Shown here: one piece after another, positions 1 to 33,232 of the stretch
Numbering within the stretch: position 1 is the stretch's first letter
Layout of the letters: each line of letters opens with the position of its first letter
Source of the DNA: Archivesica marissinica
Taxonomy: Eukaryota; Mollusca; Bivalvia; Venerida; Vesicomyidae
Assembly: GCA_014843695.1 (NCBI GenBank)
Contig: CM026387.1
Location: forward strand, 77,502,106 to 77,566,105
DNA length: 64,000 nt
Direction of reading: 5' to 3'
Program-made: the position numbers and the translations under genes
Notes under the pieces: generated by a model
What the model saw: the letters and a program-made list of their open reading frames with translations, nothing else
The model's database searches: none
Told to the model about the DNA's origin: nothing

Positions 1-71
1 TTAACTGCAGACACACCTCTCCAGAATCCCTTTGGACTGTAATATATCTTTTCCATTTTTTTTTATTGTGA

Positions 72-476
72 TTATAACATTTTATATGCCAGAACACCAG
101 TAGCTACCATACCTAAACCCACAAATAACAACTCTCTATTCTTCTGCTCCGGTGATGGTGTGTAAAAATCATTAAGTGTAGGTTCAGGTAATGATGCAAG
201 TCTCTTTCCAGTCAATGAATAATACTGACTCATAGCCTCATCAACATCATCAAAAGTTTGTTTTGCATGCATTTCCTTAGTCATCCTTGAATTCAAATAA
301 TCTAACCGTTCAGCTCTTTTTTTACTCCATGCAGCTTGTGCAGCTTGAAGATCTTCAATAGCTTTATCATGTCGTTTCCTATCATCCCCAGACATATGTG
401 AGAATAAATAATTCGAACCACTGAACGCCAATGCATTCACTAATGCACCACCTACCATGATTGCTATTGTCGCCAT
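72..476 (-). CDS. Putative virion-associated membrane protein, 134 aa
   Basis: The protein has hydrophobic segments at both ends: a Gly/Ala-rich one at about residues 3-18 and one at about 115-134. Between them is a charged, helical middle (residues 30-75, rich in K, R, E and A). The C-terminal part carries the short string LNDFYTPSPEQK before the last membrane segment. Nothing catalytic is visible. It is the first of a run of minus-strand genes leading back to the capsid protein, with 21 bp to the next gene. I recall similar small proteins beside capsid genes in cnidarian virus-like elements, so a minor structural role in the virion membrane or shell is likely. That role is inferred from context and not shown by a motif. 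Confidence 0.7.
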   Translation of the reverse strand: MATIAIMVGGALVNALAFSGSNYLFSHMSGDDRKRHDKAIEDLQAAQAAWSKKRAERLDYLNSRMTKEMHAKQTFDDVDEAMSQYYSLTGKRLASLPEPTLNDFYTPSPEQKNRELLFVGLGMVATGVLAYKML

Positions 477-497
477 TTGTTTAGGGTGAAAAAAAAA

Positions 498-731
498 TTA
501 CTTCATAATATCAGCAGGAATGATACCTTGCTTAACTAGTACATCACGTGTATACATTGCCAATAGAATATCAACTGTCAGCAACCCTATATCACCCATA
601 TTAAAATCTACTTTAGGAGTTTGCATTTTAAGTATTTTCTTTGTAAGCTGTGAATAACCTATTGTAAGAATAGATTCAACACCTGCATGATACGCCATGT
701 TAACTATATGTTTACTATCGATGGTCGTCAT
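498..731 (-). CDS. Small virus-element protein, 77 aa, unknown function
   Basis: A 77-residue protein with one moderately hydrophobic segment (about residues 47-62) and a conserved-looking end, QGIIPADIMK. It lies 21 bp downstream of the neighbouring gene's end on the same strand, within the minus-strand capsid gene run. I remember proteins of this size and C-terminus next to similar capsid modules, which suggests a conserved minor virion or assembly protein, but no biochemical function can be read from the sequence. The ATG is preceded on the coding strand by an A-rich leader, as for several genes in this block. Confidence 0.65.
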   Translation of the reverse strand: MTTIDSKHIVNMAYHAGVESILTIGYSQLTKKILKMQTPKVDFNMGDIGLLTVDILLAMYTRDVLVKQGIIPADIMK

Positions 732-760
732 TTTTGTTTATGAATTAAAAAAAATAGATT

Positions 761-964
761 TTAATTAAATTCAAAAGGATCTATTCTATGGGAGGTAGGC
801 TGTTCATCATCAGGTTTAGCATTTGGTTTGGTTCTCCACATAAATATGGTTGCAATAACAGCTAAAACAGCACTACCAATTATGATTTTGTGTTGCGTTA
901 ATAGATTGGTATAGGTGTCAACATGTTTATCATCAGATGTTGATATGTGTTTGGATATCATCAT
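761..964 (-). CDS. Small single-pass membrane protein, 67 aa
   Basis: One clear transmembrane segment (about residues 27-43, IIIGSAVLAVIATIFMW) follows a hydrophilic N-terminus and precedes a Pro/Asp-rich tail. It overlaps the small basic ORF at 933-1067 by 32 bp in another frame. The two could be halves of one original basic-plus-membrane protein separated by a frameshift, or two translationally coupled small proteins. Small membrane proteins of this kind are usual in internal-membrane or membrane-interacting viruses with jelly-roll capsids. Function is not known. Confidence 0.55.
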   Translation of the reverse strand: MMISKHISTSDDKHVDTYTNLLTQHKIIIGSAVLAVIATIFMWRTKPNAKPDDEQPTSHRIDPFEFN

Positions 965-1067
965 CAGATGTAATTTGCATAAGGAGTTTAGTTTTCCTTG
1001 CTACAGCTGCTTTTATACCTGCTGCTACACGTTTTGGGTTTTTAACTGGTTTCGTCGTCTCCTCCAT
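933..1067 (-). CDS. Small basic protein, 44 aa (possible N-terminal half of the 761-964 product)
   Basis: Reading back from the ATG at 1065-1067 gives a 44-residue lysine/arginine/alanine-rich peptide containing KNPKRVAAGIKAAVARK, ending with TGA at 933-935. It overlaps the 3' end of the 1042-1602 gene by 26 bp and the start of the 761-964 gene by 32 bp. Overlaps of this size are common in compact viral genomes. The basic motif could bind DNA. A one-base frame change near 940-965 would fuse it to the downstream membrane protein, so either a real overlapping gene or a frameshifted single gene is possible. Confidence 0.45.
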   Translation of the reverse strand: MEETTKPVKNPKRVAAGIKAAVARKTKLLMQITSDDDIQTHINI

Positions 1068-1602
1068 TTTTGTTGATGTCTATATTTTTTTTTAAATCAA
1101 TATGCCTAACTGTGGTTAACATTGTAGTGAAGGGAGCTAAATACGTACCATATCTATAATACAACTCACAACATGTGCTTGTCAAAGCATGATTCACAAA
1201 CGGGTCCTCCTCTAAATCATTGATTAGTTTTGGTGGATCTATCACATTAAAATACTTAGCTACCCCCATGACATAAAGACTAATAAATGAGTTGCCTAGT
1301 GTTTTAGTCATACTTGCACCAAGACGCGCCTCATATATACAGTAAAGTTTGTTAATAGTTTCTGTAGACATGCTATCCATGTCTGTTAATTGGTATTGAT
1401 GCCCTAGATATTGGGTGCTATTCCCTCCTGCAATTATAGCAGATAATCGTTCTCTTTTTACATCATCGTTTTGCAACAGTTCTTCAACTTCCATTTTTAT
1501 TCTTTGTATATTTTTTTTTATTTTCAAGAAATAAACCACAAACACACATCCAAAAGTAATATTAACAACAGCTGCTGTTGCGTTTAATAAATCAAGTAGC
1601 AT
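1042..1602 (-). CDS. Putative viral membrane protein, 186 aa
   Basis: The N-terminus carries one strong membrane segment (about residues 8-27) followed by a lysine-rich stretch, so the bulk of the protein probably faces away from the membrane with a positive-inside anchor. The remainder is mixed helical with two adjacent cysteines (TSTCCELYYRYG near residue 143). I do not recognise the family. It sits between the ATPase gene, across a 183-bp repeat-containing spacer, and the small membrane genes on the same strand, which suggests a minor virion or membrane-remodelling protein. Confidence 0.55.
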   Translation of the reverse strand: MLLDLLNATAAVVNITFGCVFVVYFLKIKKNIQRIKMEVEELLQNDDVKRERLSAIIAGGNSTQYLGHQYQLTDMDSMSTETINKLYCIYEARLGASMTKTLGNSFISLYVMGVAKYFNVIDPPKLINDLEEDPFVNHALTSTCCELYYRYGTYLAPFTTMLTTVRHIDLKKNIDINKNGGDDETS

Positions 1603-1622
1603 TTTTAGTAGAAGAAATTGTA

Positions 1623-1776
1623 TTTACTCAAGCATTACTTGTGTTTCAGTATTACTCAATTGCATTACTCAACAATACTGAAATATAACCATAAAAAAAA
1701 CATGATGCTTATCAAGGATTTCAGTAATGTTGTTGTATTACTCAAGCATTACTCAGTATTACTCAAGCATTACTCA
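1623..1776. repeat. Iteron-like cluster of ATTACTCA repeats
   Basis: Six exact copies of ATTACTCA (starting at 1651, 1664, 1737, 1748, 1758 and 1769) and two close variants (near 1623 and 1634) fill most of the only sizeable gap inside the minus-strand gene run. An imperfect inverted pair lies inside it (AACAATACTGAAAT near 1670 against ATTTCAGTAATGTTGTT near 1719). Such clusters serve as origins, packaging signals or promoters in other viruses; which applies here is inference. Confidence 0.55.
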
Positions 1777-1785
1777 TGATGACCA

Positions 1786-2460
1786 TCATAAAATCAACCA
1801 ATACCCAGTGGGCTGGTCTGTTCTTAGTACTAATTTTACATGTTTTGTCTTTGCCAGATTTTTCCTTATTACACTTCTTTCATCACACGGAATAACATCG
1901 TTTTCACGTAAACACATCTCATAACTGTCTCTATCTTTCATATAAAACATACAAAGCCACTTTGTTTGGTCTCTCAAATCTTTTAACACAGAATTATATC
2001 TTTGTGTTAATACCCAGACAGACTGTTCTGCGTGCCTACCTGAGAAGGCAAGTTCAGACAGCATGTCTCGTTTCTTCGTAAGCTCCTTCGTTGCAGAGCA
2101 ATCATCAATAATGTAGAGGGTAGGTGTACCAGCATATTGATTAAAAAAGACCCTCAATAGCTCCTGTAGCTTTTCAGTCCCATCAGAGGAAACTGGGTTA
2201 ACGATCTTTATTTTTTTGTCTCTCGGATGTTTCACATCACCAATCCATGACCTGTTTTTGTATGCTTTATTCCATGCTATGGTTGGGCATAATATAATTA
2301 TATTTCTAAATACACCTTGATATTCATCTTCTAATAAATCAAGTACATACTCTGTCTTACCACACCCAGTTTGACCACATATCACAGCACAATGTGGGTA
2401 TTTTGGGTAATTAATAGAGAGCTTCTTTGAATCGTCCATCTTGGAAGTTAATTTGTGCAT
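1786..2460 (-). CDS. A32-like genome-packaging ATPase (FtsK/HerA superfamily)
   Basis: The protein has a Walker A loop GQTGCGKT at about residues 30-37 and a Walker B strand ending in two acids (TLYIIDDC, about residues 115-122), followed by a glutamine-bearing segment WVLTQRYN that fits the sensor region. This arrangement and the 224-aa length match the small packaging ATPases of jelly-roll dsDNA viruses such as Mavericks, adintoviruses and poxvirus A32, which drive DNA into the preformed capsid. The ATG at 2460 overlaps the capsid gene by 50 bp; the internal Met at 2439 (MDDSKK) is an equally good start and overlaps by 29 bp. The frame is intact and all nucleotide-binding residues are present. 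Confidence 0.85.
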   Translation of the reverse strand: MHKLTSKMDDSKKLSINYPKYPHCAVICGQTGCGKTEYVLDLLEDEYQGVFRNIIILCPTIAWNKAYKNRSWIGDVKHPRDKKIKIVNPVSSDGTEKLQELLRVFFNQYAGTPTLYIIDDCSATKELTKKRDMLSELAFSGRHAEQSVWVLTQRYNSVLKDLRDQTKWLCMFYMKDRDSYEMCLRENDVIPCDERSVIRKNLAKTKHVKLVLRTDQPTGYWLIL

Positions 2461-3679
2461 CTTGTATTATATAGAGATAAACATTTATTGGATCTGCAGT
2501 ATTTGCTTTCTTACTGATTTGGATAGTTATTCCTTCACTGGCATTTTGTATCGTTCTTCCGGTTCGGTGAAGGGAGTTATCATCCGTGGATCGTAGATCT
2601 AACCACAATGCATAGTTGGATGATATATATTTTTCCACATTAACGTTACTTAGTGTAATGTCGTGCAGTATTTTATCTGTTTCTTTATTCCGTTTAGATG
2701 TCAAAGCAAAGAACTTGTTTATTTCATCCCATTGTTGATAAGCACGCATACCTTGACTATAAAGCTGGTTAGGCACACCTTCTATTGTAAGCTCCACTTT
2801 CTCTATTCCAGGATTATAGTACTCTTCACTGCTTTCTCTGTCTGGGTCTTCAAACACCATTAGAATACCTTTCATACTACGGGCTGGTACATTAACGTTT
2901 ATATTCCATAAAGTATCAGATTTGTCTTTAGTGATTTTTCTATGTCTCAGTATTCTGTCGTATAATATCGTAGTGTGGTTGCTATAATTATCATTTATTT
3001 GTCGTGCCAGTGTTTCATTGGAGACTGTATCTATTTCAAGGCATATATTACTTATTACATATTTTGAATCTTTATCAGTAGATTTTATCACTTTACCATA
3101 GTCATTGAATGTCAATTCATATTCAAGCCTATCACCCAGACCTGCTTGGTAAAATGGCATATCTGTTTCTAGTAATTCAAAATCTAGTGGAATGAAGAAT
3201 CGATTACCATATGCCAATGCAACAGCTTTATCTCCATCATCAGATGTAGCATCTCCAGCCCCGACTCTATGTTTAATCATGTTTGGTTCACCAACACCTT
3301 GGTAAGCCATGTTTATTCTTTCAGAAGGAGATTTCCACAAATCTGTATAACAGTGAAATATATCACTATCATCGATTGACATGACTTCATTCCCACTTAT
3401 CTTTATCGTTGTCTTCTTCACTATCGTTCTCCCAACGTTTTGAAACAGTGTTGCATTAGCATCCTTGCTATCAATAGTCAGTTCAAAAGCCAATCTTGCA
3501 GACCTTGGCACAATAACATCTGTGTTGCTGAGATTGGGGAATCTCACTAGAAGCTGTTGATTCTGATCAATAGTACTAGGGTTGTTGGTTATAACAATCG
3601 ATTGACGAATACCTTTAACACCACGTGGTTCTCTAAGTTTCCTATAAGGATCGAGTTTGTATCCGTATGCTGATAACAT
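2411..3679 (-). CDS. Probable double-jelly-roll major capsid protein, 422 aa
   Basis: The predicted pattern is beta-rich. An N-terminal strand region (about residues 25-70) leads into a segment with TTIKISGNEVM and then a second beta-rich half (about residues 180-410). Length, high strand content, position beside the packaging ATPase and the neighbouring penton-like gene all fit the hexon-type major capsid protein of Tectiliviricetes/Maverick-type viruses. It is shorter than typical Polinton capsid proteins but similar to other short double-jelly-roll proteins. No cysteine-rich or catalytic motif is present. It is divergently transcribed from the 3722-4960 gene across a 42-bp spacer. The assignment rests on pattern and context; a structure prediction would settle it. 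The frame is intact. Confidence 0.65.
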   Translation of the reverse strand: MLSAYGYKLDPYRKLREPRGVKGIRQSIVITNNPSTIDQNQQLLVRFPNLSNTDVIVPRSARLAFELTIDSKDANATLFQNVGRTIVKKTTIKISGNEVMSIDDSDIFHCYTDLWKSPSERINMAYQGVGEPNMIKHRVGAGDATSDDGDKAVALAYGNRFFIPLDFELLETDMPFYQAGLGDRLEYELTFNDYGKVIKSTDKDSKYVISNICLEIDTVSNETLARQINDNYSNHTTILYDRILRHRKITKDKSDTLWNINVNVPARSMKGILMVFEDPDRESSEEYYNPGIEKVELTIEGVPNQLYSQGMRAYQQWDEINKFFALTSKRNKETDKILHDITLSNVNVEKYISSNYALWLDLRSTDDNSLHRTGRTIQNASEGITIQISKKANTADPINVYLYIIQDAQINFQDGRFKEALY

Positions 3680-3721
3680 TATTTTTAAAAGAGGAGGATT
3701 TTATTTGTTTTTATTAAATAA
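3680..3721. promoter_or_regulatory. Divergent promoter spacer between capsid and structural genes
   Basis: Only 42 AT-rich bases separate the starts of two oppositely transcribed genes, so both promoters must lie in this spacer or reach into the coding regions. No canonical TATA box can be assigned with confidence; the plus gene is preceded by TTATTAAATA. Confidence 0.4.
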
Positions 3722-4960
3722 ATGGCTGAAGGTGGAATGGATTTTGATCATGACGATAATGAAGGTGATACGATATTGCCAGAAATACCTGGAAGCACGA
3801 AAGAGATTGGTGAAATGCGTAGTGAGCTGGAAAAGCCTTTGATTAGGATTAAACAATATACTGAGAAATTTTATAGCTTTATAAAGGATAAATACGGATT
3901 AGAACCTACTCGTGAGGTTAATATGGAACAGTTTAAGTTAGAGGATAATGGTAGTGTTTTGCACTGGAAAGTGGACGGTAAAGATATCACCATGACAACA
4001 TCAAGAGGTAAACTGTCATTTGTGTCTCTTGATACATTAGCTCAAAAGTATGGTAAAGGAGGAACTCATGCTATTCGAACAAATCTGGGATTGGATGGGT
4101 ATAAATCTAAATTAAGGGCTGTGACAAAGGCCTTGAATACAGCAGAAATGAGCTTAGAACAGATTCCTATGCAGGATTTGTCTAGCACTACTGAGGTTAA
4201 AAGAGTTGTAGACACTGCAAATCATAATGAAACTATATTAGATAGATTACATAATGAACTCCATAAGGAAACCACTGGAAGTCAAACAGATGGATATGAT
4301 CTACGTGAACTAGAAGGTCTTGATAAAGCACTACAACGAACCAGAGGGGAGCTTACAAATAATCTTGCAAAACTGACTGAGATAGATAAATCTATTAAGC
4401 AACAAAATGGTGATATAGCTGTGGGTGGTCAAGATGAGGAAACACAGAAAACAATGAGTACATATTTGAAAGATTTACGTAGTGAAAGAGAAGCAAGATT
4501 AGAAGCTGCATCTGCGAATAAAGATGCATTGAGAGGGCAGATTAACAGAATACGTGAAACCATCACGCGTGTTCTCGATGGTGATACTACTATAGGAGAG
4601 AAGTTAAGAACTTTGTTTAAAGAACAGGGGATTACCATTGCTAGTATTTTGACTGCACTTGGTTTGTTGATTGGGGTATTAGTTGAAGCATTTATTCCTG
4701 CGACAGTTGTTGGGGGTAGTAGTGCTAGTGGTGCTAACAGTAAAAGTTGGATTAAAAAACAACTCAATAACTTAGGCAAGCTACTTGCATCTTTAGCAGG
4801 TAAAGCTGCTTTGGCATTACCAGGTGTTATTGGGAGTATTGTGTCATGGTTGCTTTCAGCTACAGGTAAAGTAATTAATTGGTTTGCTAGTAATACATGG
4901 GGATTGATTGTTGTTGTTGCAGGACTTTTGTATGCAGCAGCAGTGAAGTATGTTAAGTGA
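3722..4960 (+). CDS. Multi-pass/coiled-coil virion protein, 412 aa
   Basis: The N-terminal 300 residues are hydrophilic, with an acidic start and long charged heptad-like stretches (about residues 140-300) that suggest coiled coil. The C-terminal quarter has three hydrophobic segments (about 304-334, 352-384 and 392-408) separated by a Gly/Ser linker and a lysine patch (SWIKKQLNN). I recall this C-terminal arrangement in uncharacterised proteins of cnidarian virus-like elements, so the family is probably conserved with this capsid module. It could be a membrane-puncturing, scaffolding or tail-tube-like delivery protein; none of these is shown. The stop codon overlaps the end of the convergent gene at 4953-6281 by 8 bp. 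Confidence 0.65.
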   Translation: MAEGGMDFDHDDNEGDTILPEIPGSTKEIGEMRSELEKPLIRIKQYTEKFYSFIKDKYGLEPTREVNMEQFKLEDNGSVLHWKVDGKDITMTTSRGKLSFVSLDTLAQKYGKGGTHAIRTNLGLDGYKSKLRAVTKALNTAEMSLEQIPMQDLSSTTEVKRVVDTANHNETILDRLHNELHKETTGSQTDGYDLRELEGLDKALQRTRGELTNNLAKLTEIDKSIKQQNGDIAVGGQDEETQKTMSTYLKDLRSEREARLEAASANKDALRGQINRIRETITRVLDGDTTIGEKLRTLFKEQGITIASILTALGLLIGVLVEAFIPATVVGGSSASGANSKSWIKKQLNNLGKLLASLAGKAALALPGVIGSIVSWLLSATGKVINWFASNTWGLIVVVAGLLYAAAVKYVK

Positions 4961-6281
4961 ATTTATAAGCAGCAAATGCTATTATACCAATCATCATTGA
5001 ACCAAAGATGATGGCTGTCTTTTTTTCGCTATGCGTTAGTGATGATACAACCTTATCTGCAGGTTTATTCATCGGCAAGGTTTTAGGAGGTAGATTTACA
5101 GGGTTATTCATCGGCAAGGTTTTATCTGCAGGAGGTAGAGCAGTGATTTTAGGAGCAGTGATTTTAGGAGGTGTTGTAAGGGTTCCTATCACTTTATGAA
5201 TGATTTTAGGAGGCACAGGTTCCAGATTGACATCATTGTTAAGACCTATTGCTTGTTGTGGTGTTGCAATGATTATATTGTTGTTGTATCCTTTGATGCT
5301 GACAGCTATCTCAAGTTCCATGTTACTTGGTGACATGTACAGACCTGTGCCAAATACAAAGTCTACTTTACTTCTTGCATATTTTAATACGTTTTCATAT
5401 CTAGATATTTGACTTGGTAAGTCTACTGGACTGTTAATAGCATCTTCCACATTTGCAAGAAACTGTTTTTGAGCATCAAAAGCAGTTCCAGTACCAATGA
5501 TATTCGTTCTTGTTTGAGATTGTGCCCCAAGAATAGCCCAACAATAAGTTCTGATACTGTCATTTATTCGTTCAACTCCTGCTTTTGTAAAGCCATTGGA
5601 TTTATCTAGAATAAGAGTAGACCACGATTGATGAACATCACCAGGGAATTGTTTTATCCACAGAATATCCCACTTACCTCTAGGTGAGAAACTTGCAAAT
5701 ATGTAATTGGGTGGTATAGTACCCATATTCGCTACACGATTACCTGCTGCATTAGGCCACTTCTCATAGGGCCTGCCAAATCCATGATTCTTACCAGGAA
5801 TACGCCAGTCAGCATTTCTGTCTACATTGAATTCACTGCATATTCTTTCATATGCTTGTCTGTTGTATGTGTTCTTAAATGCATTCCATGTTTTGTTTTG
5901 TGGAAGTGCTGATACCATCTCAAATAATATTCTTCTTGTTTGGTAGTAAACATGAAACTTGAAGAATGAACCTAGTAGACCTTTTTCTTTTAGATGATTT
6001 TCATAATCCACACCACAGCCTGTTGTTGCACACCATATTGCAAAGTTAAGCTGATTCTGCCAGAAGTCCATTAAATCTGTGTCCCACCGTGATACAATGG
6101 CAGGTTGATTGACATAAGGCATTACGTATTTTTCAAATATATCAATGAAAGCAATCTTGAATTGTTTATCATTAGATGTGACAGCTATTTCCTGGTTTAT
6201 AATGTCTATATGTTTGTTGTTATAGACACTTGAATGAGGATAGCCGGCAGTCGGATTATATTTAAATTCTTTTTTTACCAT
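4953..6281 (-). CDS. Putative minor capsid/attachment protein with C-terminal membrane anchor, 442 aa
   Basis: The first 340 residues are a Trp- and Tyr-rich globular region. Residues about 355-415 form a proline-rich stalk with short repeats (TLPMNNP and TLPMNKP). The last 20 residues are a membrane segment (IIFGSMMIGIIAFAAYKF). A globular head, stalk and C-terminal anchor suggests a virion surface or vertex protein, but no receptor-binding or enzymatic motif is recognised. Its ATG at 6279-6281 lies only 11 bp from the ATG of the divergent 6293 gene, and its stop overlaps the stop of the 3722-4960 gene. The frame is intact. Confidence 0.6.
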   Translation of the reverse strand: MVKKEFKYNPTAGYPHSSVYNNKHIDIINQEIAVTSNDKQFKIAFIDIFEKYVMPYVNQPAIVSRWDTDLMDFWQNQLNFAIWCATTGCGVDYENHLKEKGLLGSFFKFHVYYQTRRILFEMVSALPQNKTWNAFKNTYNRQAYERICSEFNVDRNADWRIPGKNHGFGRPYEKWPNAAGNRVANMGTIPPNYIFASFSPRGKWDILWIKQFPGDVHQSWSTLILDKSNGFTKAGVERINDSIRTYCWAILGAQSQTRTNIIGTGTAFDAQKQFLANVEDAINSPVDLPSQISRYENVLKYARSKVDFVFGTGLYMSPSNMELEIAVSIKGYNNNIIIATPQQAIGLNNDVNLEPVPPKIIHKVIGTLTTPPKITAPKITALPPADKTLPMNNPVNLPPKTLPMNKPADKVVSSLTHSEKKTAIIFGSMMIGIIAFAAYKFT

Positions 6282-6292
6282 AGATTTTTAAA
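6282..6292. promoter_or_regulatory. 11-bp divergent intergenic spacer
   Basis: Two start codons point away from each other with only AGATTTTTAAA between them. Any promoter or leader for either gene must therefore overlap the coding sequence of the other, or the transcripts start further out. Confidence 0.4.
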
Positions 6293-6952
6293 ATGCAACA
6301 TATAATTTCAAATACTAATAAAATAGTTCCACTTCAGCAGTACATAGATAATAGTAAATCTGACATTAAAGTTGGTCTACGCTCTATTACATATATTGTC
6401 GGGTGGTACAACATTACACATGAGTATGTGCGTTGGAAGATTGGAAACAAGCCTCCTGTTGAATTCATACTTCAGCCGGGTTTGTATGGATTTGATGAAT
6501 TAAAATCTATTCTAATTCATACAGGTGTGAAAATGTATTGTAATATGTCAAACGGTGTTATAACAATGACCATTCCTCCTGATTACAAGGTTCTTCTATC
6601 TGATGGATTGAAGACAATGCTTGGTTTCACAGCTAAGGGCTACTATAGCCCCGGGACACATATTGCTGCCAAGTCAATAGACTTTGCTCCTATGCGCGCC
6701 TTGCATGTTCATTTGAATCAGGTAAACACAGAAAATAACTTTTATGATGGAGCCCCGAGTGATCTGATTGCAGTTGTTCCAATAGAGGATAAGTTATTTG
6801 GGCATATTGTTAACATATGTTATCAGAATCCACAGTTCAGACGTCTTGCTGATGGTACTATTTCTGAATTGGAAGTTAGAGTTACAGATCAGAATAACAA
6901 TACCCTTGACAATCATGGGTTACAGATTTCTGTTGTGCTGGAATTTATTTAA
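6293..6952 (+). CDS. Penton-like jelly-roll capsid protein, 219 aa
   Basis: The length and the strand-rich pattern fit a single-jelly-roll vertex (penton) protein: repeated short hydrophobic strands, a GYYSPGTHI loop near residue 122 and a terminal strand LQISVVLEFI. In Maverick/adintovirus-type viruses the penton gene lies close to the capsid and ATPase genes, as here. From memory, similar proteins ending in the same kind of terminal strand are found with cnidarian capsid modules. It is followed by two more plus-strand genes with short gaps, forming a plus-strand cluster with possible shared transcription. The fold is inferred. Confidence 0.6.
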   Translation: MQHIISNTNKIVPLQQYIDNSKSDIKVGLRSITYIVGWYNITHEYVRWKIGNKPPVEFILQPGLYGFDELKSILIHTGVKMYCNMSNGVITMTIPPDYKVLLSDGLKTMLGFTAKGYYSPGTHIAAKSIDFAPMRALHVHLNQVNTENNFYDGAPSDLIAVVPIEDKLFGHIVNICYQNPQFRRLADGTISELEVRVTDQNNNTLDNHGLQISVVLEFI

Positions 6953-6971
6953 TTTGTTATGCATAAAAAAA

Positions 6972-7370
6972 ATGAGTATATTTGGTCCATCTGTACCTGC
7001 ACCAAAACCTGTTGTAATAACTGTTTGGGCAGAAGAATCTGGGTTTTTAACAAAGGGAAGATTTGAATGGTCTTTTGGGAACGGAGCAACAGATAAGAAT
7101 TCAGGATATACGATGATGAGATCTGGTAATATTACTATGATCTCACTAACGGCACCACAGGTTAGTTCGGGTAGTGCAGCTGTTAACATTTCCGTCAACG
7201 GTGTTGATACATCTTATGGCGTTTCTATACCTAAGGGTGATCAATCTGTTTTTAAACATTTTGATAGCCCTTACTATGTTGAGGCTGGATCAGTTATTAA
7301 CTTCATGTCGACGGCTAGCTCTAAGGAGACCACTGCTAGTGTTGTAGCTTTGTTGATTGAATTGTTTTAA
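6972..7370 (+). CDS. Small beta-rich, spike/fibre-like protein, 132 aa
   Basis: The start is taken at the ATG at 6972, 19 bp after the previous stop and after a run of A residues; longer upstream readings only run through the penton gene in another frame. The protein is compact, with alternating hydrophobic residues, many Ser/Thr/Gly and no charged helices (GRFEWSFGNGAT near residue 28; GNITMISLTAP near 51). This pattern is typical of small beta-sandwich knobs. Position directly after the penton-like gene suggests a fibre or spike knob attached to the vertex. No homolog of known function is recognised. Confidence 0.6.
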   Translation: MSIFGPSVPAPKPVVITVWAEESGFLTKGRFEWSFGNGATDKNSGYTMMRSGNITMISLTAPQVSSGSAAVNISVNGVDTSYGVSIPKGDQSVFKHFDSPYYVEAGSVINFMSTASSKETTASVVALLIELF

Positions 7371-7397
7371 TTTTTTTAAAATGTTTTACAATAAAAC

Positions 7398-7961
7398 ATG
7401 AAGCAACCAACAGCACCTCTGTATCCGGAATTACCAGATGGGTATAGATTACAGAAAATATCTGAGATAGAGCAGACGCTAATTAAAGAACGAGACATTA
7501 GGCAGTCATTGTATAAGAAATATAAACGGAGTATAAATATTACAGATGGAGTTGATACAACTCTCATTTCTGTGAGTGTGATTATGGGTGGCATTGGCTT
7601 GGCGATACCATTAATGTTGCCTCTGGAAATAGCTGCAATGGTTTGTGGTATAACAGGGGTGTGTGTCAAGTTTATTAGAAGACGACTGCATTCAAAAGCT
7701 GAGAAGCATTATGAAATTAAGGTGATTGCAGAGAGCAAGTTAAACAGCGTGAAGGATTTGATTTCAAAGGCATTGAATGATGGTCAAATATCAGAACAAG
7801 AATTTACGATGGTTCTGGATGAACTAGAGAGATATAATGATCTCAAAGATAAGGCGCGCTTAAAACAGACAGGAATGAGTGAGGTAGAAAGGAAGAAGTT
7901 AATAGAAGAAGGAAAGGCACAGGCATTAAGTGCAATTCAAAAAAAAATAAAAGACACATAA
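7398..7961 (+). CDS. Virus-element membrane protein with helical tail, 187 aa
   Basis: The N-terminal 45 residues are charged and helical, then a long Gly/Pro-containing hydrophobic hairpin (about residues 54-90) is followed by a basic stop-transfer (KFIRRRLHSKAEKH). The last 80 residues are helical and include NSVKDLISKALNDGQISEQEF. I recall proteins with this architecture next to cnidarian capsid modules. It is the last gene of the plus-strand cluster, starting 27 bp after the spike-like gene. A two-pass membrane protein of the virion or of the assembly site is the best guess. Confidence 0.62.
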   Translation: MKQPTAPLYPELPDGYRLQKISEIEQTLIKERDIRQSLYKKYKRSINITDGVDTTLISVSVIMGGIGLAIPLMLPLEIAAMVCGITGVCVKFIRRRLHSKAEKHYEIKVIAESKLNSVKDLISKALNDGQISEQEFTMVLDELERYNDLKDKARLKQTGMSEVERKKLIEEGKAQALSAIQKKIKDT

Positions 7962-8191
7962 TTTTGTTTAATAAGTTTGTATATGTTAATGAGTATGCAA
8001 CTCCACCAGCATATTCTGAATAGAATCATTTTTACTACATTGTACTTATTATCAGTTTAATGTTATCTACTGATGTTATCATTAAAAATCACATACTCAT
8101 ATCGGGAGATGACTCAGGGACAGGCCTGTCCTTGGCTGGCTAACTGCCAGAATGTTTGAGATTGGGGAATATAGTTTTATGAAAAAAAAAA
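7962..8191. other. Convergent intergenic region with 14-bp palindrome
   Basis: This 230-bp gap separates convergent genes and has no plausible ORF. It contains the perfect palindrome GGACAGGCCTGTCC at 8118-8131 followed by a second small inverted element (TTGGCTGGCTAACTGCCAG). It could form a hairpin acting as a shared 3' processing or termination signal, but that is inference. Confidence 0.35.
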
Positions 8192-8503
8192 TCAACACCT
8201 TGGATACACTATATCAAACGAATGATACTTATTTTTTTTATTCTTTTTACACTGCTTCAATCCGGTAGATCTAAAATGAAATGGATATACATCTGGTCTC
8301 ATTTTTTTAATCATATGTCCAGGAGCCCATAATTCTGTGTCATCTGATAGTTTCAATACAAGTGCTTCACCATATTCTGTGTCTATCATTCTTGTATCTT
8401 TGACTGTGAATATTTTATCTTGTGGCAAATCTACCCATTTGCTAATGTTAGTAGTTTGTTCTTCAAGTAGTTCATCGAAGAGGGCTGTTGAGATGTTTGT
8501 CAT
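8192..8503 (-). CDS. Small conserved-looking protein, 103 aa (possible OB-fold/ssDNA-binding)
   Basis: The protein is beta-rich with alternating hydrophobics in the middle (KIFTVKDTRMIDTEYGEALV, about residues 29-48) and a lysine-rich C-terminal stretch (KQCKKNKKNKYHSF). The length and pattern resemble small OB-fold nucleic-acid-binding proteins, and such a protein would be expected in a dsDNA virus replication or packaging set. I recall similar short proteins in cnidarian elements but no tested function. It is convergent to the 7398-7961 gene and is the last virus gene before the hairpin at 8644-8730. Confidence 0.55.
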   Translation of the reverse strand: MTNISTALFDELLEEQTTNISKWVDLPQDKIFTVKDTRMIDTEYGEALVLKLSDDTELWAPGHMIKKMRPDVYPFHFRSTGLKQCKKNKKNKYHSFDIVYPRC

Positions 8504-8591
8504 TGTTTTTTATTATATAATATTATTTTTAAATAAGATATTTTTATTGTTACTATTTTTATTGTTTGCTAGTTCAGGATTTTTTATTAAG

Positions 8592-8636
8592 TGGTCCAGA
8601 ACCCTCAGGGTGGTACAGAGTGAGCCAGAACCCTCA
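8592..8636 (+). repeat. Direct repeats of CCAGAACCCTCA beside the hairpin
   Basis: CCAGAACCCTCA occurs twice (near 8595 and 8624), and the related GAGCCAGAACCCC occurs again at 8701 inside the hairpin arm. Reiteration next to a long hairpin suggests a recognition region, such as an element end or origin. Confidence 0.45.
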
Positions 8637-8643
8637 AAAGTTC

Positions 8644-8730
8644 ATATATATGTAACATGGGGGGTTTCTGGATCGATTCACGAGCGTTGGCTCGTGAATT
8701 GAGCCAGAACCCCCATGTTACATATATATA
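8644..8730. repeat. Long imperfect palindrome (about 41-bp arms, 4-bp loop)
   Basis: The left arm (8644-8685) and right arm (8690-8730) are reverse complements apart from a few mismatches, with GTTG as the loop; the innermost pairing is CACGAGC/GCTCGTG and the outer arms carry TGTAACATGG and CCATGTTACA. As DNA this would extrude as a strong cruciform. As RNA it would be a long stem. Its place just outside the last virus gene makes it a candidate element terminus or replication structure. Confidence 0.75.
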
Positions 8731-8849
8731 CTTGCATTATTTTCTAAAAGATAAAAAAGGCTACTTTCATTTTCGGTTTATATATTAGGCGAATGTTGTT
8801 GGAACTTACATATATGTTCAACCATGATAACCTGGTGTTCGTATAGGAA

Positions 8850-9112
8850 GGAGTGTGTGTTTATTCATCGTCGCTACCGGTTGCCCATATATTAGTTATT
8901 TTAGATTTTTTGAGGATAGTGCAATCATACAGACCCATTCCAGAGTCTCCATTAGTTCTTTTACGTGTACGGTATAAAGCACCGACAATAGACCTCGGTA
9001 TAAACTATAGAGTCCCATCTGAAAGACTTAATGTTATCATGGTCAGACGCTGGATCGAACCTGGATTACCAGTCCAGCATGTTAACTACTAGACTACCGA
9101 TCCGTCTGTGTA
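8850..9112 (-). mobile_element. tRNA-derived SINE, family A
   Basis: On the minus strand this begins with a tRNA-like head (B-box-like GGTTCGATCC near 9055; anticodon-arm sequence CTGGACTGGTAATCCAG). It continues through a body ending in GGGCAACCGGTAGCGACG at the low-coordinate end. The same body is present at 58538-58836 (plus) and, degraded, at 15545-15925 (minus). The head looks tRNA-Thr-like. It is comparable to the conserved-core (Meta/Deu-domain type) SINEs described in molluscs, though I cannot confirm the exact family. Confidence 0.7.
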
Positions 9113-9407
9113 TAGGAAGGATCCTTTGTTGATGTAATTTATATGGCCCGCAATCAGTAAATAATATAGTCGGTCAATACAAAACGAGAACAGTACACGT
9201 ATGGAATACATTTTATCATTTTTGAAAAATGCATAGTACGAAAACTAGAACAAACATGTCCTTACAAGCTAACTAGGGTTCCCATATAGTATATTACTAT
9301 ACGTGGATTTGGATTGCCAGTGAATATGTACATGTAAATAAAGTACACACAGTCTTACGATAATTGCTTTTAATGTCCTGTATTAGATAGGTTATACACA
9401 TTTATTT
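9113..9407. other. No recognised feature
   Basis: AT-rich sequence without a plausible ORF, RNA gene or repeat that I can identify. Confidence 0.5.
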
Positions 9408-9713: not shown

Positions 9714-11264
9714 CAGGGCCTTGACACATTTTTAATTTCTTACTCGTCCTACTGGGCGAGTGATGCCACAGTTCAACTCGTCCAGATTGGACCACCACTC
9801 GTCCCATGTGTTTTAGGAAAATATAAAAATCGTCAGAATTGCCCTTTAATTTATTAATAAGTGCAATTATGTCACTACATGTATTTAGAATTTTGATCAA
9901 GGTACACAAACTAGCATGGTTTATATTCGTGTGGTTTATACACATTTTTATTCAGAAACAAAATTATGACTTGTAATCAACTCGCCTGTTGAGGATACAA
10001 GTAGTAATGCACGCATCATACAATTATTATTACACGACACATTCAGGTAACCGTTTTGGTCACAACATTGGTGTATAGCCTTGCACATATCTCAAACTGA
10101 GTATCCAACTCTCAATCATATCAATTAGCTACATCATGTCTGAGCTTAGTCACGGGGTTACGATAACTGATCAGACATTCAGTAATCTTCAGTCACAGAT
10201 CGAGAGCTAACCGTTGTGCAGACTCGAACCTAGTGGGATTTTTAATTCAGTCAACACTTGTTCCCGCTACCGCTGGCTCATTATCTGGGCTAGTAGTATC
10301 ACTATGCATTGTCCGTTTCCTCGGATCTGGACACACATGCCCTCTTGTGTGCCTGCTTCCCTTCCCCGCATTCAACTAGTTCACAATACTTTTAGTTGGG
10401 TTGTAGTCATTGAGAGCTATTCCATCCAGGTTGATACGCATCAGTCTGGAGACAGTGCTCTGCTTGAGTGACGTTCTGGTGTCCGTTTTGATCTGGTTCA
10501 TCTTACTGAAGCCCCGTTCGCACTCTGCGGTCGTTGGGGGGGGGGGAATTGTCAACATTATCTGTACCAGAGGGAGTATGTTCTTCAGATGCTCCACGTC
10601 CTGGTTCGCCAATATATTTTCATAGACATCAGCAACTGATCTCTTTACTAGCTTTTCTGCGATAGTGTCCTTACTGACACCTACGGAATTAAGTCCCTTC
10701 AACCAGCCATCCTTCACCCCGTGCGCATGCCCATGTTCCAGATCAACAATTTCAGCTAGACTAGTCTTAACTTCTCCGTTTTCTGCAACATAACGCACGT
10801 ACACTAATTCCTATTAATTTATACCCGTAACAGCTTTGGCCTTATCAGATTCACGTTTGTGTACGGCCTCCCTGCAAAAATCGCCGAATGTCAGTCGACA
10901 TTGTTGTTTTCTGAGATGCTGGCACGCAGACGACGCGTGATTGGTCGGGACGGGTTTCGTAAAACAAATATAGGCTGCAACTATTGTACCCAAGTTTAGC
11001 AAGAGTCCAACACCAGTCTACAATGTGTGAGTTGTTTATTGTGGCAGCGTAAACACATTAAAATATCCTCGGTGATTTCCCATTATCACGCCTGGTAATC
11101 ATTCCGAAGAAAGTAAAACGGATATTATTTTATTTTGTTCCTACGATTTATATTGGATATTTAGCTGAACTCGTCCGACTGGGCAAGCGACTTGGAATTT
11201 CTACTCGTCCAGATCGAAAAGTCACTCGTAAATACGAGCGGACGAGTGGATTTGTCGAGCCCTG
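9714..11264 (-). mobile_element. Deleted hAT transposon
   Basis: The left end begins CAGGGCCTTGACACA at 9714. The right end, read inward on the other strand, begins CAGGGCTCGACAAATCC at 11264. Both subterminal regions carry repeated CTCGTCC and CGAGTG motifs (9742-9800 and 11170-11250). CAGGG termini and the hAT C-terminal domain encoded inside (10376-10804) identify the superfamily. The bases just outside (GCTTCCAC left, CAGTTCCAC right) suggest a decayed 8-bp target duplication, shifted by one base. At about 1.55 kb it is too short for a complete transposase of roughly 600 aa, so it cannot move on its own. Confidence 0.7.
10376..10804 (-). pseudogene. hAT transposase C-terminal dimerisation domain remnant
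   Basis: The 142-aa reading frame contains the segment TAECERGFSKMNQIKTDTR (about residues 92-110). This is the signature of the hAT family C-terminal dimerisation region, also found in KIAA1586/ZNF862-type host proteins. The BED finger and the catalytic RNase-H-like core are missing, although a short open stretch at 10814-11002 could be a decayed N-terminal piece. It lies between recognisable hAT termini. It is a relic, with no sign of host domestication such as an intact long frame. Confidence 0.75.
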
Positions 11265-11528: not shown

Positions 11529-14500
11529 TATGATGAATGGAGATCAGTGCGCAGAGAAATAGTTCATATTTAAAACTATGATGAATGGAGGTCAGTGCGC
11601 AGAGAAATAGTTCATATTTAAAACTATGATGAATGGAGTTCAGTGCGCAGAGAAATAGTTCATATTTAAAACTATGATGAATGGAGGTCAGTGCGCAGAG
11701 AAATAGTTCATATTTAAAATTATGACGAATGGAGATCAGTGCGCAGAGAAATAGTTCATATTTAAAACTATGATGAATGGAGTTCAGTGCGTAGAGAAAT
11801 AATTCATATTTAAAACTATGATGAATGGAGATCAGTGCGCAGAGAAATAGTTCATATTTAAAATTATGATGAATGGAGATCAGTGCGCAGAGAAATATTT
11901 CATATTTAAAACTATGATGAATGGAGATCAGTGCGCAGAGAAATAGTTCATATTTAAAATTATGATGAATGGAGCTCAGTGCGCAGAGAAATAGTTCATA
12001 TTTAAAATTATGATGAATGGAGATCAGTGCGCAGAGAAATAGTTCATATTTAAAACTATGATGAATGGAGTTCAGTGCGCAGAGAAATAGTTCATATTTA
12101 AAACTATGATGAATGGAGTTCAGTGCGCAGAGAAATAGTTCATATTTAAAACTATGATGAATGGAGGTCAGTGCGCAGAGAAATAGTTCATATTTAAAAT
12201 TATGACGAATGGAGATCAGTGCGCATAAAAATAGTTCATATTTAAAACTATGATGAATGGAGTTCAGTGCGTAGAGAAATAGTTTATATTTAAAATTATG
12301 ATGAATGGAGGTCAGTGCGCAGAGAAATAGTTCATATTTAAAATTATGATGAATGGAGTTCAGTGCGCAGAGAAATATTTCATATTTAAAACTATGATGA
12401 ATGGAGATCAGTGCGCAGAGAAGAGAAATAGTTCATATTTAAAATTATGATGAATGGAGTTCAGTGCGCAGAGAAATAGTTCATATTTAAAATTATGATG
12501 AATGGAGTTCAGTGCGCAGAGAAATAGGTCATATTTAAAATTATGATGAATGGAGATCATCAGTGCGCAGAGAAATAGTTCATATTTAAAATTATGATGA
12601 ATGGAGATCATCAGTGCGCAGAGAAATAGTTCATATTTAAAACTATGGTGAATGGAGATCAGTGCGCAGAGAATTAGTTCATATTTAAAACTATGATGAA
12701 TGGAGATCAGTGCGCAGAGAAATAGTTCATATTTAAAACTATGATGAATGGAGATCAGTGCGCAGAGAAATAGTTCATATTTAAAACTATGATGAATGGA
12801 GTTCAGTGCGCAGAGAAATAGTTCATATTAAAACTATGACGAATGGAGATCAGTGCGCAGAGAAATAGTTCATATTTAAAATTATGATGAATGGAGTTCA
12901 GTGCGCAGAGAAATAGTTCATATTTAAAACTATGATGAATGGAGATCAGTGCGTAGAGAAATAATTCATATTTAAAACTATGATGAATGGAGTTCAGTGC
13001 GCAGAAAAATAGTTCATATTTAAAATTATGATGAATGGAGATCAGTGCGCAGAGAAATAGTTCATATTTAAAACTATGATGAATGGAGATCAGTGCGCAG
13101 AGAAATAGTTCATATTTAAAATTATGATGAATGGAGATCAGTGCGCAGAGAAATAGTTCATATTTAAAACTATGATGAATGGAGATCAGTGCGTAGAGAA
13201 ATAATTCATATTTAAAACTATGATGAATGGAGTTCAGTGCGCAGAGAAATAGTTCATATTTAAAATTATGATGAATGGAGATCAGTGCGCAGAGAAATAG
13301 TTCATATTTAAAATGATGATGAATGGAGATCATCAGTGCGCAGAGAAATAGTTCATATTTAAAAGTATGAGGAATGGAGTTCAGTGCGCAGAGAAATAGT
13401 TCATATTTAAAATTATTAGGAATGGAGTTCAGTGCGCAGAGAAATAGTTCATATTTAAAATTATGATGAATGGAGATCAGTGCGCAGAGAAATAGTTCAT
13501 ATTTAAAATTATGATGAATGGAGATCAGTGCGCAGAGAAATAGTTCATGTTTAAAACTATGATGAATGGAGATCATTGCGCAGAGAAATAGTTCATGTTT
13601 AAAGCTATGATGAATGGAGATCAGTGCGCAGAGAAATAGTTCATGTTTAAAACTATGATGAATGGAAATCAGTGCGCAGAGAAATAGTTCATGTTTAAAA
13701 CTATGATGAATGGAGATCAGTGCGCAGAGAAATAGTTCATATTTAAAACTATGATGAATGGAGATCAGTGCGTAGAGAAATAATTCATATTTAAAACTAT
13801 GATGAATGGAGATCAGTGCGCAGAAAAATAGTTCATATTTAAAATTATGATGAATGGAGATCAGTGCGCAGAGAAATAGTTCATATTTAAAACTATGATG
13901 AATGGAGATCAGTGCGCAGAGAAATAGTTCATATTTAAAACTATGATGAATGGAGATCAGTGCGTAGAGAAATAATTCATATTTAAAACTATGATGAATG
14001 GAGGTCAGTGCGCAGTAAAATAGTTCATATTTAAAATTATGATGAATGGAGATCAGTGCGCAGAGAAATAGTTCATATTTAAAACTATGATGAATGGAGT
14101 TCAGTGCGCAGAGAAATAGTTCATATTTAAAATTATGATGAATGGAGCTCAGTGCGCAGAGAAAAAGTTCATATTTAAAATTATGATGAATGGAGATCAG
14201 TGCGCAGAGAAATAGTTCATATTTAAAACTATGATGAATGGAGGTCAGTGCGCAGAGAAATAGTTCATATTTAAAATTATGATGAATGGAGATCAGTGCG
14301 CAGAGAAATAGTTCATATTTAAAATTATGATGAATGGAGTTCAGTGCGCAGAGAAATAATTCATATTTAAAATTATGATGAATGGAGATCAGTGCGCAGA
14401 GAAATAGTTCATATTTAAAATGATGATGAATGGAGATCATCAGTGCGCAGAGAAATAGTTCATATTTAAAAGTATGAGGAATGGAGTTCAGTGCGCAGAG

Positions 14501-14908
14501 AAATAGTTCATATTTAAAATTATTAGGAATGGAGTTCAGTGCGCAGAGAAATAGTTCATATTTAAAATTATGATGAATGGAGATCAGTGCGCAGAGAAAT
14601 AGTTCATATTTAAAATTATGATGAATGGAGATCAGTGCGCAGAGAAATAGTTCATGTTTAAAACTATGATGAATGGAGATCAGTGCGCAGAGAAATAGTT
14701 CATGTTTAAAACTATGATGAATGGAGATCAGTGCGCAGAGAAATAGTTCATGTTTAAAGCTATGATGAATGGAGATCAGTGCGCAGAGAAATAGTTCATG
14801 TTTAAAACTATGATGAATGGAAATCAGTGCGCAGAGAAATAGTTCATGTTTAAAACTATGATGAATGGAGATCAGTGCGCAGAGAAATAGTTCATATTTA
14901 AAATTATG
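11529..14908. repeat. 48-bp satellite array, about 70 copies
   Basis: The monomer runs ATGATGAATGGAGATCAGTG, then CGCAGAGAAATAGTTCATAT, then TTAAAACT. Copies differ mainly at a few positions (GAGATC/GAGTTC/GAGGTC, AAACT/AAATT, CATATTT/CATGTTT). Because 48 is a multiple of three, the minus strand stays open over long stretches and gives a 545-codon frame (12803-14440) of 16-residue repeats. A block of variants (ATGATGATG, an extra ATC, TATGAGGAATGG, TATTAGGAATGG) near 13310-13430 recurs near 14417-14540, showing internal duplication of about 1.1 kb. Confidence 0.97.
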
Positions 14909-15544
14909 AATCAGGCTTATGGTGAAACAGTAAGAAACAATTATTTGTTTTATTGTATGACATAATATTTGACAATTATCACTGTGAAAATGGTTCCCTG
15001 TGCAAGAATGTACATGCAGTATACTTGTCGTATAATTATATTGAACACCTAGTGTACGGATACATACATATAATATGTTATTTCGTTTGTTGATGGGGTA
15101 TACGAGTATATAGTGCCGGTCAGGGGTGATGTTCCCCGAGCTGTCACTACATACTGATATAACCTATCAACACTTTGACACCGGCACGTCTAGTCTAAAT
15201 ATTTAGACTTGAAAAATGAGACATTTTACTATCCAGGCATTTTTCAAATAACAGATTATGTAGAGTCTTATATATAGGTCTACAGCACGTCCATATTTGG
15301 AATCACACATTTGTTCAATATATGTTAAGATCGTTTTGTGGCGTTAGTGACATTGAAGAAATTCAACATATTTAAATTGTGTAATATGCTGGAAAATGGC
15401 CTCCATATTTATTTCAGCATCTTGTACAACACACACAAACACGCACGCACGCACACACACAAACACGCACGCACGCAAGCATCTTGTACAGGCACGTGTA
15501 ATATGTTCCCGATCATTAAACATCCTTACCAGATATGTTGTATG
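14909..15544. other. Spacer with short ACGC microsatellite
   Basis: No convincing gene. An (ACGC/ACAC)n stretch lies near 15437-15475. AT-rich elsewhere. Confidence 0.5.
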
Positions 15545-17053: not shown

Positions 17054-18283
17054 ATGTACATCGTATTTATGAAACATTTATTTATATTGCTACTTTTGAT
17101 CCTAACAGACCAGTCATCAGTTGTAACAGGAGAAAATGAATCAGCCGTTAGTGTTGTCAGCAGATCAAGAGGGGTAAATGAAATGGAGCCTGTAGCAAAA
17201 ATCGAGCAGACTAGTTCTATGGATCTTGCTGGAAATCTGTCGACTGAAGGTATTGATGATCCTACTACAGATCATAGGAAGGCGCTTAAAGAAGTACAAG
17301 TGAATTCAGATGCACTTTCCAGTAAACATGAAAATGTGCCACTGCTAACACCTGACACATGTACGGTGGACACTGTAATGACAGTTGATGTCGGAAATAA
17401 ATCAGGAACCACAGATGGTGCAGACATGGAAACAAGCGATATACATATGTCAAATACGAACGACAGAACACTTGAGGAGACCATTCCAGGAATCTCTCAG
17501 AGAGATATTGAAATGACTAATGAAAGTGGTACAAGGGAATCAGTTGTTATTCAGGACGAAGGTAAACAACAACATACTGGGAACTTGAACAATGTAAACC
17601 CAGACCCTAGCAAGGAATTATCAATACAGCTTGAACAAGTTAAACGTGACACTGAAACAAATGGAAAGCTGATGATTATTAAAGATGGTGTGCAACTAAC
17701 CAATGATGGTAATCCAGATAAAATAGTGTCTGACTCTGACAAGGATTCAATGCATGACAGTGATACTTCAGATGATATAGGTGACCTATCCCTTTCACCA
17801 AATGCTGCAGCTACACATGCGGATAATGAGCAGACTAAGCGCAACACAAAGCAGCATAAAAAGAAAAATAAGACACAGGGGAAGAATGACAGAGATGAAA
17901 TATGTGTACCTAAAGATAAACCACAAGATGAAAAACCAAACACAGCAGTCAACAGCAGTAACTCTGCAGTTGGAAATACGGATTCAGAAGTTAGTCATAA
18001 AGATTGTCCATCAGAGACTGTAAAGACCGAAGAGCTACAGCAGAAGAATGAGGTTGAAGGTAAAGATTTTGGAAATGCCAATTCGTGGAAGAATGAGCAG
18101 CCATCTAATACAACGCCACTATCTGATCCTATACAACCGAGCTTGTTTAATACTAGCAACAAAGAAGGACATGGAGTTGGAAAAGCTATTGACACTCATA
18201 TGGTGACCGATGGCAGCACTGATATTGACACAGGACAACAAACTATGCCTAAGACACAGGTAAACATTTACTTTGCTTTGTAG
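17054..18283 (+). CDS. Low-complexity acidic ORF, possible 5' exon of the CBM20/RNF213-like gene
   Basis: The open frame gives 409 residues rich in Asp, Glu, Ser, Thr and Asn with a basic patch (KQHKKKNKTQGKNDR, near residue 270) and no globular domain. The first 27 residues look like a signal peptide (HLFILLLLILTDQSS). However, TTGTAACAG just after it could be a splice acceptor near 17130, in which case the hydrophobic start is intronic. Near the 3' end, ACACAG followed by GTAAAC (donor at 18259, phase 0) would remove the last eight codons, so the stop at 18283 may be read-through into an intron. It lies upstream of the CBM20 exon on the same strand. Disordered N-termini are usual in RNF213-type proteins, but the link is inference. 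It may instead be a separate secreted, disordered protein. Confidence 0.5.
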   Translation: MYIVFMKHLFILLLLILTDQSSVVTGENESAVSVVSRSRGVNEMEPVAKIEQTSSMDLAGNLSTEGIDDPTTDHRKALKEVQVNSDALSSKHENVPLLTPDTCTVDTVMTVDVGNKSGTTDGADMETSDIHMSNTNDRTLEETIPGISQRDIEMTNESGTRESVVIQDEGKQQHTGNLNNVNPDPSKELSIQLEQVKRDTETNGKLMIIKDGVQLTNDGNPDKIVSDSDKDSMHDSDTSDDIGDLSLSPNAAATHADNEQTKRNTKQHKKKNKTQGKNDRDEICVPKDKPQDEKPNTAVNSSNSAVGNTDSEVSHKDCPSETVKTEELQQKNEVEGKDFGNANSWKNEQPSNTTPLSDPIQPSLFNTSNKEGHGVGKAIDTHMVTDGSTDIDTGQQTMPKTQVNIYFAL

Positions 18284-30604: not shown

Positions 30605-31032
30605 TTCCTAACGTATTCTATTACAGCGCAAGCCTCCTTTTCGACTGGAGAATGACTCAGCTCAGGTGAATGTAGCGTGCGTGAAAAGAAAGCTACAGGA
30701 CGTCCACCTTGATTCAGACTTCCGATGATAGCTACATCTGAAGCATCAGTTTTCACGACAAATGTTTGAGATTCATCAATTACTTTAACGCTTGAAAATT
30801 CCACGTCCTCTTTAAGTAGATTAAATGCAGCTACCGCGTCTTTGTCCAACCGAAAGTTAGTTACACTGACTAGTGGACGTATCTTATCGGAGAATCGCGG
30901 TAGCCATTGACTGTAATATGAAAACAAACCCATACCTCTCTTCAACGACTTTACGTTATGTTGTTTCATTCGTTCTGGATCCGGCTGATTGAGTATCCCA
31001 GAAGGTTTGTGGTTCGAACAAAATATGTACAT
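30520..31032 (-). pseudogene. gypsy pol: RNase H block
   Basis: The block contains the end of the reverse transcriptase connection domain (GMGLFSYYSQWLPRFSDKIR) and the RNase H core: VKTDASDVAIIGSLNQ, then RPVAFFSRTL, then EKEACAVIEYVRKWRH. It is separated by a frame change near 31030 from the reverse transcriptase block upstream and by another near 30560 from the integrase block. Confidence 0.82.
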
Positions 31033-33128: not shown

Positions 33129-33232
33129 ACTTGATGTTATAACTTTGGTGCATAAAACAACGATTCGATTGAAACGTGTTATGTCCATTTTCATGATATG
33201 CACGGGATTTTCGAGTCAGATTCGAACCCTTT

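Follow-up and report, generated by a model that had tools for sequence, protein, structure and literature searches.

The 64,000-nucleotide stretch of the 1.54-Gb Archivesica marissinica genome analyzed here (C2:77502106-77566105; hereafter the window) begins inside one copy of what is probably an endogenous DNA virus of the Polinton/Maverick type, about 14.0 kb long, whose two ends are predicted to fold into hairpins. On the interpretation that we consider probable, it is a Polinton-type virus with covarying hairpin ends that would start protein-primed replication in the folded state, be packaged by jelly-roll capsid proteins and re-insert through an integrase of the rve type. The element extends from L009:4734 to about window position 8730, and the window's left edge cuts through it (L009 is the DNA just left of window position 1, other L-numbers are further fetched pieces, and C-numbers are chromosomes). 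Its right edge was set by other copies, several of which align as far as window 8729-8731, and independent repeat copies begin directly outside it at window 8732; the single exception, a C16 copy whose alignment continues through the edge, does so because its flank resembles that of this locus (72%). The original prediction for the window had reported no polymerase or integrase, which proved to be an effect of the left edge: extending the contig leftward uncovered an integrase, a likely polymerase and the partner terminal repeat in L009, the two genes lying just left of position 1.

Both termini of this copy are palindromes, with predicted folding energies as single-stranded DNA of -29 and -35.5 kcal/mol (z-scores of -10.9 and -12.3; none of 200 shuffles for either end), and 0 of 1366 internal 86-base windows of the element are at or below -25 kcal/mol (minimum -13.4). 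A hairpin is present at 34 of the 42 ends in hand, which comprise 20 + 20 from other copies and this copy's own two; L037, which has an N gap, and L046, whose outer arm is missing, were omitted from the scripted count, which is thus 34 of 40. The six hairpin-negative ends in that count are two that contain N (L074 and L082) and four without a palindrome (L068, L070, L076 and L077), for which the element end is perhaps outside the fetched piece. Twenty-four of the 42 ends (L084 and L085 included) are this copy's own or were chosen for their match to this element's end, which favors hairpins (22 of the 24), and among the ends placed purely by their distance from the major capsid protein (MCP) gene the hairpin is present at 12 of 18.

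Twenty-seven hairpins (18 distinct) were aligned; the seven omitted are L041, L042, L045, L078 and L079, because of their length, and L066 and L085, whose hairpins are identical to those of L072 and L084. In this alignment 14 of 38 pairs have changed on both sides (72 cells), with a covariation score of 0.280 vs. 0.087 in shuffled alignments (0 of 500 shuffles) and with 2-4 such pairs in slid controls, although the structure was drawn from the same sequences and is therefore favored over its slid versions, and relatedness among the copies inflates the shuffle tests. Further pair types show no excess (19 vs. 19.8 in shuffles). In 6 of the 13 pairs, including the one formed by this copy, the stem at one end differs from that at the other. 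Since the two arms change together, it is likely that the ends act as folded structures during replication.

A second subfamily has unrelated stems that start exactly at AGTAGT (z -10.8 to -15.6 in the four tested). Its ends were chosen by their likeness to the 74C7 hairpin, 13 of the 15 matching ends being taken; among these 13, the hairpin stands at AGTAGT in nine (its arms are interrupted in L090 and L093), three lack the outermost bases and one is truncated. A polymerase match 44-46% identical to this element's lies within 10 kb of seven of these ends. In the accessible portion of a study of vertebrate Mavericks, the (AGT)2 motif described at their ends is the same as this AGTAGT (PMC8097293). 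The loop of the second-family hairpins (L090-L098, L056 and L057) consists of near-pure C tracts, and the opposite strand would be G-rich.

In protein-primed replication, the displaced strand normally circularizes through matching terminal inverted repeats (TIRs). The linear DNA of the present element likely replicates by protein-primed synthesis starting at folded ends; the hairpin probably arises on the displaced strand, where it would present a double-stranded origin, so that either end would serve as an origin or telomere in its own right. Self-folding ends would remove the need for the two ends to match, and a hairpin origin at each end would explain the pairing kept despite sequence drift, the unlike ends and the fixed hairpin orientation. 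The DNA would be packaged into the predicted jelly-roll capsid, and re-insertion would be by the retrovirus-type integrase.

The integrase (299 aa), a Polinton/Maverick hallmark, matches Pfam rve (E 1.1e-8; 35.7 bits vs. a cut-off of 32.6), and DDE-like residues are visible in its translation; it also matches the NCBIfam IS481 transposase (E 3.8e-15), but at 56 bits, far under the cut-off of 224. The likely family B polymerase lies at L009:5617-9194 and in this copy is divided between two open reading frames (ORFs) in different frames; the same stretch is one open frame in copy L089, and several copies have open frames of >1100 aa. Its motifs D-NNLYG and KLMNN--GKT are kept in four paralogs, and DTDS in all three whose sequence extends to it; we take these motifs to be those of a protein-primed family B polymerase (pPolB), which this protein likely is. 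An Endonuclease VII-like zinc/HNH motif precedes the palm motifs (residues 495-531 of L009:5617-7587; L089:643-3030, E 2.9e-5). The twelve compact ORFs predicted at window positions 72-8503 were confirmed, the ATPase, MCP and penton genes among them (Table 1); the gene set had been called intact, which holds for these capsid-side ORFs, all open, and fails for the polymerase gene of this copy.

The ATPase, likewise a hallmark (FtsK/A32-type packaging ATPase), matches Pfam Pox_A32 (E 2.9e-12; 47 bits vs. a cut-off of 22.8) and phrog_2666 (E 2.5e-14), a family annotated as terminase large subunit, and does not group with a cellular family; these profiles predict a role in genome packaging. Its sole match in a PDB sequence search is the packaging NTPase B204 (E 0.71). 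Structure prediction gives jelly-roll folds for both capsid candidates, and the single jelly-roll predicted for the penton is another hallmark. The MCP model matches capsid chains of PBCV-1 (413-436 aa) and PRD1 (369-379 aa), so its 422 aa, noted earlier as shorter than in classic Polintons, are not unusual for the fold; it scores better against giant-virus capsids than against virophage capsids. PDB sequence searches with the MCP and with an MCP alignment returned nothing usable. From the predicted folds and the A32-type ATPase, the earlier assignment to an endogenous jelly-roll double-stranded DNA virus stands, and the suggested lineage lacking polymerase and integrase is not supported. Capsid homologs (120 listed of 2201) include proteins from Mytilus edulis, Mactra antiquata and a bacterial metagenome-assembled genome (MAG) of Candidatus Thiodiazotropha; we take the last to be a clam symbiont, and its capsid homolog is likely host DNA.

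A genome search with the MCP gave at least 99 scored matches from 517 candidates, some of them partial, and 89 of the 99 have no in-frame stop, a fraction biased upward because the best candidates were scored. The MCP copies group at about 91-100, 84-86, 73-75 and 62-65% identity. Over the twelve best copies, some of which have a stop or indel in one gene, the MCP has a median dN/dS of 0.12, the ATPase one of 0.09 and the 412-aa ORF one of 0.42; the low values indicate that the capsid and ATPase genes are under selection in replicating lineages. With dS to the nearest copies of 0.025 and 0.036, the recent spread that had been proposed together with capsid selection is borne out. Such selection on MCP and ATPase would be expected from passage through particles, but is no proof of them. 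A contig of 4.6 kb assigned to a Diapherotrites MAG (L106; JAADDH010000017.1) encodes, with broken frames and in the gene order seen here, counterparts of the MCP, the ATPase, the 186-aa ORF and the polymerase (segment identities of 31-65%). It probably represents eukaryotic or viral DNA that was binned in error; a search of it for a terminal hairpin was negative, and the contig may stop short of the element end. Phage records searched with the ATPase yielded no relative.

The TIRs, also a hallmark, lie at L009:4935-5357 and window 8573-8150 (92% alike over 425 columns), and each contains a copy of a 103-aa gene. In six of eight pairs tried from other subfamilies the TIRs are 94-99.5% alike; none was detected in two, one member of each of which contains N. 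One 74%-type copy (L054/L055; C12:67.40 Mb) has 3.1-kb TIRs that are 99.3% alike and the target-site duplication CCCCAC. Of the 12 readable pairs in this element's subfamily, three have a target-site duplication as judged by eye (C3:28.52, C7:31.09 and C1:5.71), and so do four of six other-subfamily pairs (86C10 GGCGT, 74C12 CCCCAC, 74C7 CATTAG and 64C2 CCATC); the 84C14 candidate matches in just 4 of 5 bases. An automatic count at 6 bp barely distinguishes true from mismatched pairs (4/13 vs. 13/156) because AT runs yield chance matches. The three duplication-bearing pairs of this subfamily have like ends, and four more like-ended pairs have no clear duplication (C3:28.28, C10:68.42, C8:10.98 and C5:108.76), so unlike ends alone cannot explain its absence. 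Several element ends abut or neighbor N gaps, and L066 (C8:10.98 Mb) and L072 (C5:108.76 Mb) have one 700-base flank that is 100% identical and another that differs, which could reflect recombination, duplication or mis-assembly. Recombination or mis-joins leave the hairpin finding untouched, since each hairpin lies within a single end; because of the unlike ends and N gaps here, the Polinton type is assigned to the lineage rather than to the ends of this locus. A preference for integration at tandem repeats was considered and rejected (tandem repeats adjoin 10 of 32 ends, but also 9 of 32 positions 430-460 bp away). The right flank (window 8732-9399) matches repeats clustered at C2 78-82 Mb, and several insertions have beside them a common repeat that at L081 resembles a tRNA, and so a SINE, on visual inspection.

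A number of observations weigh against a Polinton-type virus that replicates from folded ends. No match in Pfam, PHROG, NCBIfam or PDB identifies the polymerase; the structure predicted for the MCP is weak (pLDDT 49.5), with Foldseek TM-scores by query length of 0.16-0.32 among the matches listed; and searches of IMG/VR with the MCP, ATPase, MCP alignment, penton alignment and polymerase gave no free relatives. Recombination or mis-assembly may have produced this locus, which has unlike ends and no 5-6-bp target-site duplication. The covariation could have arisen without selection, through arm-to-arm copying repair. Finally, five of the six other-subfamily pairs with a detectable TIR have no hairpin at the TIR edge (the 63C8 edge is uncertain), so the hairpin is not required by all kin. 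This last point, like the by-eye duplications in four of those six pairs, suits an ordinary Polinton in which the palindromes are inverted binding sites for integrase or terminal protein, and in which foldback copying or repair homogenizes the arms of a functionless hairpin, an alternative that we regard as rather unlikely. A GGTTCTGG core is nearly invariant in both arms and the outer stem varies, as bound sites would lead one to expect; however, the compensatory changes sit mostly outside the core (columns 10-15 and 18-19), a distribution for which binding to a motif would not by itself account, and the unrelated second stem family likewise stays paired.

Acquisition of poxvirus-like covalently closed hairpin telomeres, along with the giant-virus-type capsid and A32 ATPase genes, would also place hairpins at the termini and accords with the giant-virus types that the MCP and ATPase match. 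In such a system a resolvase cuts the concatemer, but no resolvase family appeared in Pfam scans of the element proteins, and the outer arm joins host DNA directly, whereas a telomere junction would mirror the whole TIR; we consider this improbable. There is very little to be said for host domestication, in which the capsid genes are retained for particle formation at this locus: these ORFs are open beside broken retroelements, but the predominance of stop-free MCP matches and the low dN/dS among the twelve copies fit a multiplying element, and the polymerase frame is split in this copy. Parvovirus-like hairpin transfer, which the terminal palindrome and the inner second palindrome of several hairpin alleles might recall, is rejected as highly implausible, since flip and flop ends predict both orientations and all 34 hairpins share one.

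The element resembles Polintons/Mavericks (polintoviruses; adintoviruses in animals) in its length, TIRs, rve integrase, likely pPolB, packaging-type ATPase and predicted double-jelly-roll MCP and penton, and in the 5-6-bp target-site duplications of related subfamilies, three of which have AG ends. It differs from them in an MCP model nearer to giant-virus than to virophage capsids, in its covarying hairpin ends and TIR-borne gene, and in protease content, no Ulp1/adenain-type or other protease family being found among the 18 element proteins scanned with Pfam. In the available part of a survey, the adenovirus-like (Ulp1) protease occurs in 74% of Polintons, so its absence is compatible with membership (PMC4028283). 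Mavericks have been annotated in bivalves, according to the accessible parts of two reports (PMC10294476, PMC8905726). The gene content is of a known kind: as far as the available description goes, meldvirus chimeras such as Meld23486 join adintovirus-type PolB and integrase to capsid genes resembling those of poxviruses or larger DNA viruses, the same mix of replication and capsid genes as here, and that portion does not mention hairpin ends (PMC11071296). The likeness is by description; Foldseek matches to 'MELD virus sp.' proteins have identities of 10% (MCP) and 14% (penton). To such cases the present capsid genes add an animal family, rich in copies, that combines replication genes of Polinton type with capsid genes of giant-virus type. 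By analogy, the palindromic ends and putative protein priming recall the telomeres of Streptomyces linear replicons, where palindromes accompany protein-primed end replication in the part of the source available (PMC4513846); those are bacterial, with several packed palindromes and an internal origin, and no relation by descent is claimed. Hairpin ends of Polintons were not found in the literature searched (including accessible parts of PMC6431247, PMC8097293 and PMC11071308), whose scope did not extend to the original adintovirus paper or to many subscription papers.

The 187-aa protein, a predicted membrane protein with two hydrophobic segments, starts MKQPTAPLYPEL. Among the best 120 of its 475 homologs, P[ST]AP occurs within the first 60 residues in 106, and the YPxL columns are strongly kept (Y 0.97, P 0.97, L 0.98), with positions 14-15 barely so; a stricter pattern, with L or Y preceding YPxL, fits 83. 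We take PTAP and YPxL to be TSG101- and ALIX-binding motifs, and judging from its sequence this protein may recruit the host endosomal sorting complex required for transport (ESCRT) for membrane wrapping or exit. Presumably as in retroviral late domains, both motifs are adjacent near one end of the protein; unlike those, they are here on a predicted membrane protein of a DNA element. An ESCRT or late-domain protein in Polintons was not found in the literature searched, with many subscription papers outside its scope. The broader proposal that an animal Polinton lineage replaced matched-TIR logic by hairpin telomeres, with per-end origins, interchangeable stems, differing ends and virions wrapped by ESCRT through the PTAP/YPxL protein, is one that we advance tentatively.

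Table 1. Features of the element in the window (window coordinates unless an L-number is given)
Feature	Position	Strand	Remarks
Integrase gene, 5' end	1..56	-	rve type; rest extends to L009:9157, 299 aa in total
134-aa ORF	72..476	-	Two hydrophobic segments; no known family
77-aa ORF	498..731	-	No known family
67-aa ORF	761..964	-	One hydrophobic segment
186-aa ORF	1042..1602	-	N-terminal hydrophobic segment; relative in L106 beside MCP and ATPase, 50% identity
A32-type ATPase, predicted genome packaging	1786..2460	-	Pfam Pox_A32, phrog_2666
MCP, predicted double jelly-roll	2411..3679	-	
412-aa ORF	3722..4960	+	Evolves fast (dN/dS 0.42); coiled-coil-like, with three hydrophobic segments at the C-terminal end
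442-aa ORF	4953..6281	-	C-terminal hydrophobic segment; no known family
Penton, predicted single jelly-roll	6293..6952	+	
132-aa ORF	6972..7370	+	No known family
187-aa protein	7398..7961	+	Two hydrophobic segments; PTAP-LYPEL at the N-terminal end resembles ESCRT late domains
103-aa ORF	8192..8503	-	Within right TIR; second copy L009:5004-5315
Right terminus palindrome, predicted hairpin	8643..8730	.	Left-terminus partner L009:4734-4816

PDB sequence searches with the 132-aa and 442-aa ORFs returned nothing usable, and the window has no Rfam match. In the remainder of the window, the nearby retroelements are broken, as had been reported: gypsy-type pol pieces (protease, reverse transcriptase and integrase) lie at 29417-32180, and a long interspersed nuclear element (LINE) at 43583-50102 has its reverse transcriptase at 45099-46696 and a partly repeated 3' region, both the pol and the reverse transcriptase being fragmentary. 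Pieces of a hAT transposase are present at 10379-10804. Arrays of a 44-bp satellite at 33231-42445 (208 copies) and 50154-55690 (∼109 copies) have a common unit with strong AT skew, and a 48-bp satellite at 11529-14909 (70 copies) creates a likely spurious repetitive ORF of 545 aa at 12803-14440. A 409-aa ORF at 17054-18283 has a signal-peptide-like start and an acidic-looking body, and matches no Pfam family.

Polintons are thought to lie close to the origin of many DNA viruses of eukaryotes, and we are aware of no experiment that directly addresses the copying of their ends. The many open copies, the capsid genes under purifying selection and the covarying hairpins together make this end copying testable, with the natural hairpin alleles as ready-made compensatory mutants, and the PTAP/YPxL motif directly predicts how such particles would leave the cell or become wrapped.

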